Origin: Halosegnis marinus
GTDB taxonomy: Archaea > Halobacteriota > Halobacteria > Halobacteriales > Haloarculaceae
Direction of reading: 5' to 3'
Assembly (NCBI RefSeq): GCF_029338355.1
Contig: NZ_CP119802.1
Coordinates: 310,001-374,000 of the forward strand
Length of the DNA stretch: 64,000 nucleotides
The notes beneath the pieces are model-generated. The model did no database searches. It had not been told where the DNA came from and was given only the letters and a program-made list of their open reading frames with translations. The translations under genes and the position numbers were made by a program. Shown piece by piece: positions 51,294 to 55,856 of this stretch (position 1 is its first letter; each line of letters opens with the position of its first letter).

Positions 51294-53252
51294 CTACTCG
51301 CGACGCGCGAGCAGGGCCGCGCCGGCGAGCGCGACGACCGCCGCCGCGACGCCGAAGCCGGGCTGACCGGGCGTCTGGGTCGTCTCGCTCCCGTTCGAGC
51401 GGTTCAGACCGAGGTACTCGTAGGCCCCGACCACGTCGGCCTCGGGGAACGTGCGGTTGTACGTCCCCGCGAGGTGGACCGTCGTGTTCTCCGTGACGGG
51501 GTCGAGCGCGCGCACGTCCTCCTCGGTGGCGTTCCCGGGGACGGCACCGACGACCCGGACGTAGCTCGTGACCGAGCCGTTGTCCGTCCGGCCGACGGCG
51601 CTCGCGACGTTCAGGTCCGTCCCGGTGGTCTCGCGGAACGCAGTGCGGAACTCGGACATGTTCTCGAAGGCCGCGCCGGCCTCGATGCGGACGCGGTCGC
51701 CCTCGAAGGAGGCGTCCATCCGGGCGCGCCGCAGGTCGGCGTCGCGGAACGCCTCGACGAAGCGCCGGGCGTCGGCGCTCTCCGTCTCGTTGGTGGAGTT
51801 GTACAGCGAATCGAGCGCGGTGTCGAGCAGGGCGTCCTGTTCGACGGTGTAGCTCCCCTCGACGGCGAGTTCGCCGTCGCCGGTCGTCTCGGCGTGCAGC
51901 GACATCTCGGCGTCGGCCGTCGAGACGTTCCGGGCCGCGAGCGCGTCGCGGTAGGCGGCCCAGTTCTCGGTGCGGTACTCGCCGGTCACGTCGACGGTCG
52001 TGCCGTCGTCGCCGGTCGCCACGCTCGCGTCGAGCGCGTACGTCTCGACCAAGCCGGCCTCCTGGCGCGCGTCGAGCGTGTCGCGCACGCGGTCGAAGTC
52101 CGTCGTGCCGAGGCTGCTCGTCCCCTCGACGCCCGTCTCGGGCGGCTGGACCGACTCGGCGAGCGTCAGGCCGGCGCGGAGCGCGCCGGCGTAGTTCGAC
52201 AGCCGGACGGTGTACTCGCCCGCGTAGGACGACTCGCCCGCGTCGAGGGAGGCGCTGATCTCGTCCACGCGGAGGTCGGTGACGCCGCGCGCGACCTCCT
52301 CGGCCTCGGCGTCGGTGAGGTTCACGTCCTCCGAGTCGGCGAGCGAGGTGACGATGCGGTCGCGCAGGCCGGCGTCGATGCCGGTGTACTCGACGGTGAA
52401 GGCGATGTCGAGCCGGCCGGCGTCGCCGTACCCGCCGGTGACGTTCTCGAAGCTGTACGACTCGAGCGTGACGGTCGCCTCGCCGTCGAGCGAGGTCGCG
52501 AGGGAGGCGTACTGCGATTCGAGCGTGTCGCGGGCCGCCTCGCGCGTCTCCCAGCCGTCGCGGCTGTAGCCGCTCACGGTGTAGTTCTGCTCGGCGTCGA
52601 GCGTGTAGCCCGACTCGGACTCGACGAGCCGGAAGGACTGCTCCTGCGGGCTCCCGAGCGGCGTCGTCAGGTTCGCGTCGAAGCTCCCGTTCGCCGAGAG
52701 CGTGTCCGGTCCGTAGCGCGCGTCCGTCGAGAAGTCCACCGTCTCGACGAGCCCGCCGACCTGCTGGCCCGGCTCGGACTCGCCGGCGGCGAGCGTCGCG
52801 GACAGCGACAGGTCGGCCTCGGCGGTCTCGTCGGACTGCACCGACGAGGCGTCGAACGTCAGCGACTCCAGGCTCTCGGGGCTCGGCGCCGCGAGCGACC
52901 CGTTCGCGGAGAGCCGGTCCGGCGACAGCACGGCCGTCGCGTCACCGGTGACGTTCGAGTCCGTGGTGTTCGTCGTCACGACGAGCGCGTGGAGGACGCT
53001 CTCGCCCACGTCGAGGCCGTACTCGACCTGCGTGCCGGCGTCGGTCTCCGTGGCGTCGGTGTCGTACACCAGCACCACGTCGCCGTTCTCGGCCACGTAC
53101 GCGTCGTCGGCCTCGCCGAGGTCGGTGGCGTTCTCCGGGAGCGGGTCGGCCGGGTCGGCCTCCTGCGCGCCGGCGACGCCGGCCGCGCCGCCGACGGTCA
53201 CCGACGCGACCATCAGCGCCGCGAGCGCGACCGCGAGCAGTCGCTCACGCAC
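51294..53252 (-). CDS. large secreted PGF-CTERM surface protein
   Basis: A 652-residue exported protein. Sec signal peptide ending GVAGAQ (about 1-30), long Ser/Thr/Asp-rich beta-sheet ectodomain with many N-x-S/T sites and repeated ANGS and LSANGSL/F words, and a C-terminal GQPGFG, hydrophobic helix and LARRE, the PGF-CTERM signal for archaeosortase A and lipid attachment. Ligand or function unknown. The GTG at 53252 has an AGGTGA Shine-Dalgarno 6 bases upstream, so this transcript has a 5' leader, unlike most here. Confidence 0.85.
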   Translation of the reverse strand: MRERLLAVALAALMVASVTVGGAAGVAGAQEADPADPLPENATDLGEADDAYVAENGDVVLVYDTDATETDAGTQVEYGLDVGESVLHALVVTTNTTDSNVTGDATAVLSPDRLSANGSLAAPSPESLESLTFDASSVQSDETAEADLSLSATLAAGESEPGQQVGGLVETVDFSTDARYGPDTLSANGSFDANLTTPLGSPQEQSFRLVESESGYTLDAEQNYTVSGYSRDGWETREAARDTLESQYASLATSLDGEATVTLESYSFENVTGGYGDAGRLDIAFTVEYTGIDAGLRDRIVTSLADSEDVNLTDAEAEEVARGVTDLRVDEISASLDAGESSYAGEYTVRLSNYAGALRAGLTLAESVQPPETGVEGTSSLGTTDFDRVRDTLDARQEAGLVETYALDASVATGDDGTTVDVTGEYRTENWAAYRDALAARNVSTADAEMSLHAETTGDGELAVEGSYTVEQDALLDTALDSLYNSTNETESADARRFVEAFRDADLRRARMDASFEGDRVRIEAGAAFENMSEFRTAFRETTGTDLNVASAVGRTDNGSVTSYVRVVGAVPGNATEEDVRALDPVTENTTVHLAGTYNRTFPEADVVGAYEYLGLNRSNGSETTQTPGQPGFGVAAAVVALAGAALLARRE

Positions 53253-53310
53253 GCCGTCTCACCTGTGGAGGGCGGTACTGTTCGGGGGTCAGGGGGGCAG
53301 TCGTGCCCAT
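53245..53310 (-). CDS. possible leader ORF overlapping the surface-protein start
   Basis: ATG at 53310 opens a 21-codon frame that ends TGA at 53245, overlapping the GTG start of the surface protein by 8 bases in another frame. A TATA-like GTTTATGTG on the minus strand (53332-53340) lies about 26 bases before this ATG, so the transcript would begin at the small ORF. It may be a leader peptide that couples translation, or merely part of the 5' leader. Confidence 0.35.
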   Translation of the reverse strand: MGTTAPLTPEQYRPPQVRRRA

Positions 53311-53354: not shown

Positions 53355-53447
53355 CTACGCCGCGCGCGCCGCACACGCCGGACAGTCGCGCCCGACCGCC
53401 GTGTCGTACCGCCGGCCGCAATCGTCGCAGGTGGTCAGTCGGGCCAT
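53355..53447 (-). CDS. 30-residue CxxC micro-protein
   Basis: A complete 30-codon ORF from ATG (53447) to TAG. It begins MARLTTCDDC, then a GRRYDTAVGRDCPACAARAA end, so it has two CxxC knuckles (CDDC, CPAC) 12 residues apart and can bind one zinc. A TATA-like ACAAATAC (53469-53476, minus) lies about 26 bases upstream, which fits a leaderless mRNA. It is shorter than most annotation cut-offs. I do not know its function; small zinc-finger proteins are common in haloarchaea. Confidence 0.55.
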   Translation of the reverse strand: MARLTTCDDCGRRYDTAVGRDCPACAARAA

Positions 53448-53468: not shown

Positions 53469-53476
53469 GTATTTGT
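53469..53476 (-). promoter_or_regulatory. TATA-like box of the micro-protein
   Basis: Minus-strand ACAAATAC about 26 bases before the ATG at 53447. The sequence is weaker than the window's best TATA boxes. Confidence 0.4.
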
Positions 53477-53511: not shown

Positions 53512-53543
53512 CGAAAGAAGGGTGGCTGACTGTGGGGAGTCAG
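53512..53543 (-). terminator. stem-loop and T-rich tract at the end of pilin A
   Basis: Directly after the pilin stop codon, CTGACT and AGTCAG form a 6-base stem with a 6-base loop (53526-53543), followed on the minus strand by CCACCCTTCTTTC. It looks like an intrinsic terminator. The same design follows pilin B. Confidence 0.55.
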
Positions 53544-54002
53544 TTAGTTCGGAATCGTCGAGGAACCGATGGTGTTCGAGGAGCCGCCGTTGGGGGCCGA
53601 CCAGATCACCAGCACGTCGGACCCGCTCCCCGAACTGAATGCCGACGGAACGCCGGTACTGTTGCCGTTGTACCCGAAAGCCGTACTTGAACCGGTCGAA
53701 ATCGTACCACTGCTTCCTGAACCATCCGCCCAAGCCTGGGCGTCGTCGCCGTTGACCTGCACTTCTACGTTCGAAGCCTCGACATCCTGCCCACCATTGT
53801 GTGTGATGGTGAAGCTCTCGGCGCTCGAATCGTAGCTAAACTGGAAGTTCGCGTTCGGCGCGCTGCTCTGGACTTGGTCACCGAGGCCGAGCACGAACGT
53901 GCCGATGACGGCCGCCAGAATCACCGTGATGGCGACCATCAGAATCACACCGATGACGGGGGAGACCGCACCCTCGTCGCCGAATAGGTTCTTGATGTTC
54001 AT
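53544..54002 (-). CDS. type IV pilin-like protein (copy A)
   Basis: A 152-residue archaeal pilin. A short charged start MNIKNLFGDEG is followed by the hydrophobic AVSPVIGVILMVAITV helix that packs the pilus core; prepilin peptidase PibD should cut before AVSP. The N-terminal 44 residues after the cut match the other two copies exactly. The C-terminal half is Ser/Gly/Asn-rich and ends GGSSNTIGSSTIPN. It has its own upstream region, with a T-rich CTTTTTGTATC (about 54088-54098, minus) that may be its TATA box. GC content is lower than in the neighbouring genes. Confidence 0.88.
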   Translation of the reverse strand: MNIKNLFGDEGAVSPVIGVILMVAITVILAAVIGTFVLGLGDQVQSSAPNANFQFSYDSSAESFTITHNGGQDVEASNVEVQVNGDDAQAWADGSGSSGTISTGSSTAFGYNGNSTGVPSAFSSGSGSDVLVIWSAPNGGSSNTIGSSTIPN

Positions 54003-54127
54003 CGTATTAGGGGACGACCGCACGGACGGAATCTGCAATCTTCGGGGGGTCCGTCGTACTGGTCGCGTGTCCCTACAAACACGAGGTAGATACAAAAAGC
54101 GACGGGGGTAGCCGTGGCTGGTCGGTG

Positions 54128-54161
54128 TTGAAAGAAGGAAAGCTGACGCGCGGAGCGTCAG
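54128..54161 (-). terminator. stem-loop and T-rich tract at the end of pilin B
   Basis: CTGACGC and GCGTCAG form a perfect 7-base stem with a 5-base loop (54143-54161), starting right after the stop codon, followed on the minus strand by CTTTCCTTCTTTC. It probably separates the B-C transcript from pilin A. Confidence 0.6.
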
Positions 54162-54698
54162 TTAGTTGGGAACGGTCGAGGAGCCGATGGTGTTGGAGCT
54201 GCCGCCATTCGGCGAGGTCCAGATGACGCGGACGGTGTCGCCGCCGGAGATGGCGGTGAAACCGTTCGTGAAGGTCCCAGCGCTGTCGACAACCTTCGCA
54301 TTGGCTGCCGGGCTACCAGCGTTGGTAGCGTTGAACGAGGCGGTTGAACCAGTCGAGAGTGTGCCAGTAAATCCGTCCGTCGTCTGAATCTCATTACTGG
54401 CTACTTGCGTCGCGTACGCTGTCTCACCACCGATTTGAACCTCAACAGCCGACGAGTCAACGTCCTGGCCACCATTATGAGTCACCGTCGTCTCAATAGT
54501 AGCCGTTCCGTTAAGGTTCGTGTCTTCGTACTGGAACTGGAAGTTCGCGTTCGGTGCGCTCGACTGCACCTGGTCGCCCAGCCCCAGCACGAACGTCCCG
54601 ATGACGGCCGCGAGGATGACGGTAATCGCGACCATCAGGATGACCCCGATGACCGGCGACACCGCGTCTTCCTCACTAAACAGTTGCTTGAGGTCCAT
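54162..54698 (-). CDS. type IV pilin-like protein (copy B)
   Basis: A 178-residue pilin, start MDLKQLFSEEDAVSPVIG. The helix is identical to copies A and C; the middle (about 60-160) is different and holds N-x-T sites (NLNGT, FNATN) that could be glycosylated. The end GGSSNTIGSSTVPN is shared. The residue before the expected PibD cut is Asp, where copy A has Gly. Its ATG overlaps the stop of copy C by one base, so B is coupled to C. Confidence 0.88.
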   Translation of the reverse strand: MDLKQLFSEEDAVSPVIGVILMVAITVILAAVIGTFVLGLGDQVQSSAPNANFQFQYEDTNLNGTATIETTVTHNGGQDVDSSAVEVQIGGETAYATQVASNEIQTTDGFTGTLSTGSTASFNATNAGSPAANAKVVDSAGTFTNGFTAISGGDTVRVIWTSPNGGSSNTIGSSTVPN

Positions 54699-55204
54699 TA
54701 GTTCGGGACCGTGGAGCTACCGATTGTGTTCGACGAGCCACCCGAGGGCGATGTCCACACGACGCGGACGGTGAAGCCACCCTCAAACTGGTCGCCAGCG
54801 GTCGCGTTCGGTTCCACGAGCGTAAGCGTGCTACCGGTGGAAACCGTACTGGACCAAGCCGACGAAGCATTCGGGATGTAGCCCGACGAGGTGTCGTCGC
54901 CCGGTGAATCGATTACAATCGCGCTCCCAACCTGGACGTCCAGGTTGGAGGCAGAAACGTCCTGCCCACCGTTGTGAGTGATCTCTATCACGTCACCCGC
55001 TTCGAGCGAACTGGATTCGTAGTCTGCCGAAGGGTACTGGAATTGGAAGTTCGCGTTCGGTGCACTACTCTGGACCTGATCGCCGAGTCCCAGGACGAAT
55101 GTCCCGATGACGGCGGCCAGAATGACCGTAATCGCGACCATCAGGATGACCCCGATGACCGGCGAAACGGCATCTTCGTCGTCGAACAGATTCTTGATGT
55201 TCAT
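54698..55204 (-). CDS. type IV pilin-like protein (copy C), first of the operon
   Basis: A 168-residue pilin, start MNIKNLFDDEDAVSPVIG. It has the shared helix, a central THNGGQDV segment common to all copies, a variable middle and the shared end. It is the first gene of the C-B unit, preceded by a TATA-like element and a perfect 8-base inverted repeat. Pilins like these form adhesion pili and can also affect motility in Haloferax; no pilus-assembly ATPase or platform gene is in the window. Confidence 0.88.
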   Translation of the reverse strand: MNIKNLFDDEDAVSPVIGVILMVAITVILAAVIGTFVLGLGDQVQSSAPNANFQFQYPSADYESSSLEAGDVIEITHNGGQDVSASNLDVQVGSAIVIDSPGDDTSSGYIPNASSAWSSTVSTGSTLTLVEPNATAGDQFEGGFTVRVVWTSPSGGSSNTIGSSTVPN

Positions 55205-55272: not shown

Positions 55273-55785
55273 AATCGTACCGCGGACGGGGGCAAACCGT
55301 CCTCGGCGTCCTATCTTCCTTTGGCTTCGTCCGAGAGCCGATCGCTTAGAGGATTAGACTCGGCTTACCCTCATAAAGGGTCGGGCCGTTCTCGCGTCGT
55401 GAGAATGACATACAGCGGACGCATGTCTGACAATGGTTACCAGAATCATGCGTTTTAGCTCGCCTACTGCAAGCTCATCGAATCAAGCACAAGTATGATT
55501 ACTCGGAACTGGCCACGAATGCCCCGGCGGTCCGCGTCGGGAGTCGTCAGGGATTTCCAGTCACCGCCGAGTCCCGAGTCGAGGGTCGGGTCACACCGAC
55601 GCGCGAACCGGCGGAGCCGACACGACGACAGTCGCGGCTATCAGTCCTGCAGCCGGATAGCACCACCCCGAAAGCTCCGACGAGCGCGTCGTCGAGGACC
55701 ACCGAAACCGACCCGCTTCCGAGCAGCGAAACGGCCGGTGCGCGGCGCGTACGGCCTACGCGTCGCTCGTTGTGGGTTTCGAGAG
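55273..55785. other. 513 bases without a convincing gene, next to tRNA-Pro
   Basis: No good protein gene. Base composition is mixed: AT-rich words at 55360-55500 (CATAAAGGG, TTTTAG, AGTATGATTACTCG) then GC-rich sequence to the tRNA. A TATA-like CATAAAGG at 55371-55378 lies about 25 bases before a 19-codon frame (GTG 55399, TAG 55458), which is only a possibility. The longer open frame that runs into the tRNA is not real. Confidence 0.45.
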
Positions 55786-55856
55786 TGGGACCGCCGAGAA
55801 TTGAACTCGGGTCCTACGGACCCCATCCGCAGAGGATACCACTACCCCACGGTCCC
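55786..55856 (-). tRNA. tRNA-Pro (anticodon GGG)
   Basis: Minus-strand sequence folds as a tRNA: 7-base acceptor stem GGGACCG/CGGTCCC, short D-arm, anticodon stem TGCGG/CCGTA with loop ATGGGGT giving anticodon GGG, T-arm CCGAG-TTCAATT-CTCGG, discriminator A. It reads CCC and CCU proline codons. No CCA is encoded and no intron is present. It lies at one edge of the pilin region; I found no duplicated 3' end that would mark an integrated element. Confidence 0.95.

Follow-up and report, generated by a model that had tools for sequence, protein, structure and literature searches.

A candidate C4 zinc-finger micro-protein gene of the CPxCG-related kind beside a pilin array in Halosegnis marinus

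The CPxCG-related motif of small archaeal zinc-finger proteins was defined by Tarasov et al. 2008, who noted that many short frames with the motif go unannotated and showed Brz of Halobacterium salinarum to be a regulator of the adjacent bop gene (PMC2253796). In Haloferax, 12 of 16 deletion mutants for zinc-finger micro-proteins had phenotypes, and five such mutants showed increased biofilm and reduced swarming (Nagel et al. 2019, PMC6562870). In a mutant lacking HVO_0758, motility genes were down and two pilin genes were up (Uresin et al. 2023, PMC10716476), and nine of 14 C(P)XCG proteins that were produced bound zinc while five did not, motifs of this type being sometimes metal-free or occupied by another metal (Uresin et al. 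2024, PMC11241148). Here we describe an open reading frame (ORF) of 30 codons in a 64,000-nucleotide stretch of the Halosegnis marinus genome (assembly GCF_029338355.1, contig NZ_CP119802.1, positions 310,001 to 374,000 of the forward strand; hereafter the window, whose first base is position 1). The ORF is probably a real, though overlooked, gene of a kind known to be widespread in salt-loving archaea.

The open reading frame and its relation to CPxCG-related proteins

53355..53447, minus strand: 30-codon ORF for a four-cysteine micro-protein (CDDCG ... CPACA), identified from the ORF and its homologues

The micro-gene runs from an ATG at 53447 to a TAG at 53355 and encodes MARLTTCDDCGRRYDTAVGRDCPACAARAA. 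Its cysteines are arranged as C7-x2-C10 and C22-x2-C25, giving the complete ORF with two CxxC knuckles that a sequence-only reading of the window had proposed. The knuckles are CDDCG (residues 7-11) and CPACA (residues 22-26), with C10 and C22 separated by 11 residues; an unrelated frame occupies these coordinates on the plus strand. Among ORFs of 25-70 residues, the motif C..CG-x(7-14)-CP.C had a single occurrence in the window and none in 60 window-sized sequences simulated under a first-order Markov model, and the motif-bearing ORF is therefore not a product of composition by chance.

With CDDCG as first knuckle, CPACA as second, a second cysteine pair 11 residues off (7-40 allowed) and a length of 30 residues (below 100), the protein belongs to the class of Tarasov et al. 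2008, although the length distribution of that class has its maximum at 50-70 residues (PMC2253796). It falls outside the stricter rule of two C(P)XCG motifs, CPACA being without the glycine (PMC11241148). It resembles HVO_0758 and HVO_2753 of Haloferax volcanii in its micro-protein size, single domain, four cysteines and predicted metal site (PMC10716476, PMC11241148), whereas Brz has a C3H site (PMC6562870) in place of the four-cysteine (C4) site seen here. Compared with the Haloferax C(P)XCG proteins, the second knuckle differs as CPACA and 30 residues is the lower edge of reported lengths; PMC11241148 reports no annotated C(P)XCG protein below 30 residues and considers about 30 residues probably too small for a stand-alone one. 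Our literature searches, which were not aimed at the exact motif and carry no claim of absence from print, returned no description of this subfamily.

Homologues, conservation and upstream sequence

A search of 97 related genomes yielded intact-frame homologues in two of the five congeners, G004 (E = 3e-7) and G003 (metagenome-assembled genome QH_7_65_31; E = 6e-7), and in Salinibaculum litoreum HD8-45 (G019; E = 2e-5), together with a second copy in the H. marinus genome itself (G000; E = 2e-5), all of them ORFs of 32-37 residues. Conservation of the frame in relatives, the test named beforehand, was thus observed in G004, G003 and G019. The second copy, at G000:C1:2425755, has 37 residues and an intact VN; its direction of transcription leads away from a 2Fe-2S ferredoxin-like gene (L034, 4756-4869). 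Weaker matches of the search were mostly zinc sites within longer proteins. Congener matches of 65-66 residues represent a different protein, which we take to be Spt4, and were left out of the family.

We then searched 392 genomes of the order with a profile of 16 rows, the source genomes of the profile included. At E<=0.001, 80 genomes had matches. The stricter threshold of E<=1e-6 left 44 matches, and 34 of these fell in open frames no longer than 75 residues, in 29 of the 392 genomes, a count that may be a lower bound as at most 19 candidates were scored per genome. Within the genus, three of six genomes carry the family (G000 two copies, G003 and G004 one each). A scan of named genomes with the strict pattern, which is not a census, gave five contigs: three are haloarchaeal, and the other two are Firmicutes-like and carry longer frames. 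Other haloarchaeal families have a second form of the micro-protein, LWECPxCGRxVNrfVNGxxCPsC (L104, L111, L112, L113 and L114, around base 1501), for which the upstream A/T-rich stretches are less clear.

Ten residues are invariant in five family rows: M1, C7, C10, R12, Y14, V18, C22, P23, C25 and A26. Four members differed at 19-35 of 78 nucleotide sites across their six pairs, and over 26 codons the proportion of nonsynonymous differences (pN, 0.22-0.41) was below that of synonymous differences (pS, 0.34-0.61) in all six.

53470..53476, minus strand: A/T-rich TATA-like box ACAAATA, identified from its spacing to the ATG and a similarly placed A/T-rich block in 26 family ORFs

The sequence preceding the start codon reads ...CTAGCTACAAATACGACCCCCGAGTCCGACGACCA-ATG, with ACAAATA at -29..-23, a spacing expected for leaderless haloarchaeal transcripts. 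The TATA-like box of its own at leaderless spacing, also proposed from sequence, is accordingly present and has counterparts across the family. In the 26 family ORFs (34 loci less eight removed as duplicates or as open frames above 75 residues; starts assigned by rule, not evidence), the A/T fraction at -36..-26 was 0.706, compared with a mean of 0.441 on resampling (p about 5e-5, the lowest value that 20,000 draws can give). Removal of two near-identical rows left the contrast in place (0.712 vs 0.446), and Shine-Dalgarno-like motifs were rare (3 of 26). The best hexamer of the window ORF within this range has five A/T bases, a level that 2.2% of window positions match.

That the frame is a chance ORF without a product is hardly credible. 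Its 30 codons and the weak contrast between pN and pS would fit such an origin, but no simulated window contained the motif, and significant homologues share both the frame and the promoter spacing. Homology, frame conservation and promoter spacing support the earlier proposal of a micro-protein gene with a promoter-like box of its own, whose product is predicted to bind zinc.

The pilin and surface-protein neighbourhood

51294..53252, minus strand: downstream neighbour, large surface protein of 652 residues with a PGF-CTERM sorting signal, orthologues in G002, G003 and G004
53544..55204, minus strand: upstream neighbours, a tandem array of three archaeal type IV pilin genes (Pilin_N)
53526..53543, minus strand: hairpin CTGACT-CCCCAC-AGTCAG (z-score -4.1), which may part the pilin transcript from the micro-gene

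The micro-gene does lie between a large surface-protein gene and pilin genes, all on the same strand. The three pilin paralogues have near-identical N-termini, and the genome contains 11 pilin-like matches at E<=1e-8 compared with 1-8 in the five congeners, which suggests a lineage-specific pilin expansion. Because the genome is so rich in pilin-like genes, a pilin neighbour by chance would not be surprising. Upstream of the pilin cluster lies a tRNA-Pro (GGG) gene (55785-55856, minus strand).

A perfect 6-bp hairpin, CTGACT-CCCCAC-AGTCAG, stands immediately 3′ of the last pilin stop (pilin 1) and is followed by a pyrimidine-rich tail. Pilin 2 is followed by a similar hairpin at 54161-54143, CTGACG..CGTCAG, whose tail is T-rich. 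Since hairpins come after both pilins, the sequence suggests that pilin transcripts end ahead of the micro-gene, which would then be on a separate transcript. The pilin 1 hairpin and the A/T box of the micro-gene itself speak weakly against an operon with the pilins. The hairpin part of this argument is weak, because a scan for consensus terminators did not list the pilin 1 hairpin and found two sites where 2.2 are expected by chance.

The surface gene and its neighbours, presumably ilvD-, mscS-, truB- and cmk-like genes, are syntenic in G002, G003 and G004, with incomplete flanks in some of these, and the micro-gene is absent from the syntenic surface locus of all three. In G004 other genes separate one pilin from the surface gene, G002 has a similar insert without a pilin, and G003 has no pilin in the available stretch, in which masked bases lie upstream of the surface gene. 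None of the eight other family loci (L031, L032, L033, L034 and L080-L083, with roughly at least 4.6 kb per side) has a pilin nearby. A conserved ORF ahead of the surface gene (MGTTA...), shared by the window and G004, was dropped as a candidate, being absent in G002. A short frame, MGTTAPLTPEQYRPPQVRRRA (window 53245-53310, minus strand), overlaps the start of the surface-protein gene and has a similar start in G004, not in G002.

The micro-genes of G003 and G004 have an acetyltransferase gene neighbour in common (L031 3792-5574, L032 5673-6291), and the G004 copy is convergent with a histidine kinase gene, whose end its own 3′ end overlaps. The acetyltransferase orthologue of the H. marinus genome (77% identity) has no adjoining micro-gene within the flanks examined.

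From its position, the micro-protein had been assigned a role in surface regulation, and it is conceivable, though improbable, that it acts as a local regulator of the adjoining pilin and surface-protein genes. The placement itself would agree with this, as would the action of Brz on the gene next to it (PMC2253796), the influence of zinc-finger micro-proteins on biofilm and swarming (PMC6562870) and the rise of two pilin transcripts upon HVO_0758 deletion (PMC10716476). However, the position is not kept in G002, G003 and G004, the nearest congener copies lie elsewhere, pilins are missing from the eight other family loci, and in G004 the surface gene shares its stretch with a pilin but not with the micro-gene. 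As adjacency is not kept among relatives, the position-based role is left unsupported. A bolder version, in which the ORF is among the smallest stand-alone archaeal C4 zinc fingers, a minimal treble clef with hardly any flanking residues recruited beside an expanded tandem pilin array and tuning pilin expression, we regard as quite improbable.

Predicted fold and the weighing of explanations

AlphaFold, run with three sequences, predicted strands at residues 4-6 and 13-15 and a helix at 23-29 starting from the second knuckle, with a mean predicted local distance difference test score (pLDDT) of 86; in our reading, such a model would be as expected for a minimal treble clef. AlphaFold2 cannot correctly tell whether metal is bound (PMC11241148). 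A fold search of the 30-residue model against the PDB gave nothing at E<=0.001, with many zinc-binding domains among the listed matches. The top one was 3d00, a structure of 184 residues (E = 1.0, TMq 0.62), and the FmdE-type treble-clef zinc finger represented by it (PF23475) was also a weak sequence match (E = 0.03), neither being significant. HVO_2753 (6ydh) was likewise an insignificant fold match (E = 3.0). In sequence searches, solved structures gave nothing convincing (best E = 0.0067, over seven residues), and curated cut-offs were reached neither in Pfam (best 15 bits vs 28.9, for HypA) nor in NCBIfam (sole match 11.4 vs 326). The N-terminal zinc ribbon of YvyF, a Firmicutes flagellar-region protein (TIGR03826), shows the similar CxxCGRxYxxxVxxxCPxC (E = 0.0058, best of four family members), the match of 16.6 bits lying far under the curated cut-off of 124 for a model of 137 positions. 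We take the frame matched by the family pattern in a Firmicutes metagenome-assembled genome to be YvyF-like.

With the G004 homologue as query, a phage origin was rejected on the lack of any match in 50,697 phage records. A mobile-element origin was also dismissed: 40 plasmid records matched, those listed and annotated being mostly IS91-type transposases, and we read these matches as a shared zinc-ribbon shape only.

A small metal-handling protein, that is, a buffer or chaperone for nickel, cobalt or zinc in place of a nucleic-acid binder, is very improbable. The zinc site of HypA was weakly matched by 12 of 16 family members (best E = 0.0033), the G003 copy adjoins a CobB/CobQ-like gene, the G004 copy adjoins a periplasmic binding protein gene, and the metal bound is not zinc in some C(P)XCG proteins (PMC11241148). 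Many unrelated zinc ribbons nevertheless give similar weak matches, and the neighbours vary among genomes.

Several observations weigh against our preferred reading of an independent gene acting in trans. The pN/pS ratio of about 0.5-0.7 is a modest contrast over 26 near-saturated codons, the -36..-26 range was picked post hoc once the profile had been viewed, and AlphaFold gave two poor models out of five (pLDDT near 53). The family is patchy, with G002 and G005 having just the 65-66-residue protein, as does G001 (67% complete). Given the rise of two pilin transcripts in the HVO_0758 mutant (PMC10716476), a link to pilins is conceivable. The window copy is also the shortest of its close group, has VG where 14 of 16 rows have the N of VN, and is without the C-terminal tail. 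Because of this divergence, duplicate decay is a live rival and the main one: the window copy would be a truncated, drifting relic or a sub-functional duplicate, with G000:C1:2425755 as the working gene. The presence of two copies in one genome and a place that differs from that of either congener copy are also compatible with decay. Still, the four cysteines, P23, R12, Y14, the ATG, the stop and the A/T box are all intact, and an equally short family ORF of 30 residues exists (L116), and we consider decay unlikely.

The explanation we consider likely, on sequence grounds, is that the window ORF is a real, independently transcribed gene for a single-domain, trans-acting micro-protein with a C4 zinc finger, one of the CPxCG-related kind of haloarchaea. 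We infer its expression, metal binding and regulatory action as follows. The micro-gene would be transcribed on its own, probably without a leader, and the four cysteines would most likely coordinate a single metal ion within a minimal treble-clef or zinc-ribbon fold. By analogy with Brz, HVO_0758 and HVO_2753, the product is probably a small trans-acting regulator or adaptor, which may bind nucleic acid or protein, and the flanking pilins would not be under its local control.

These results indicate that neighbouring genes are sometimes a poor guide to the function of a micro-protein, and the window ORF is one more example from a class of haloarchaeal micro-proteins that is under-annotated. 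The subfamily motif CxxCxR-x-Y/L/F-N-x2-V-N-x2-CPxC, in frames of about 30-50 residues with a leaderless-type promoter, is usable for finding more members. Should the 30-residue copy prove to fold and bind metal, it would challenge the published view that a C(P)XCG protein of about 30 residues is probably too small to stand alone (PMC11241148).
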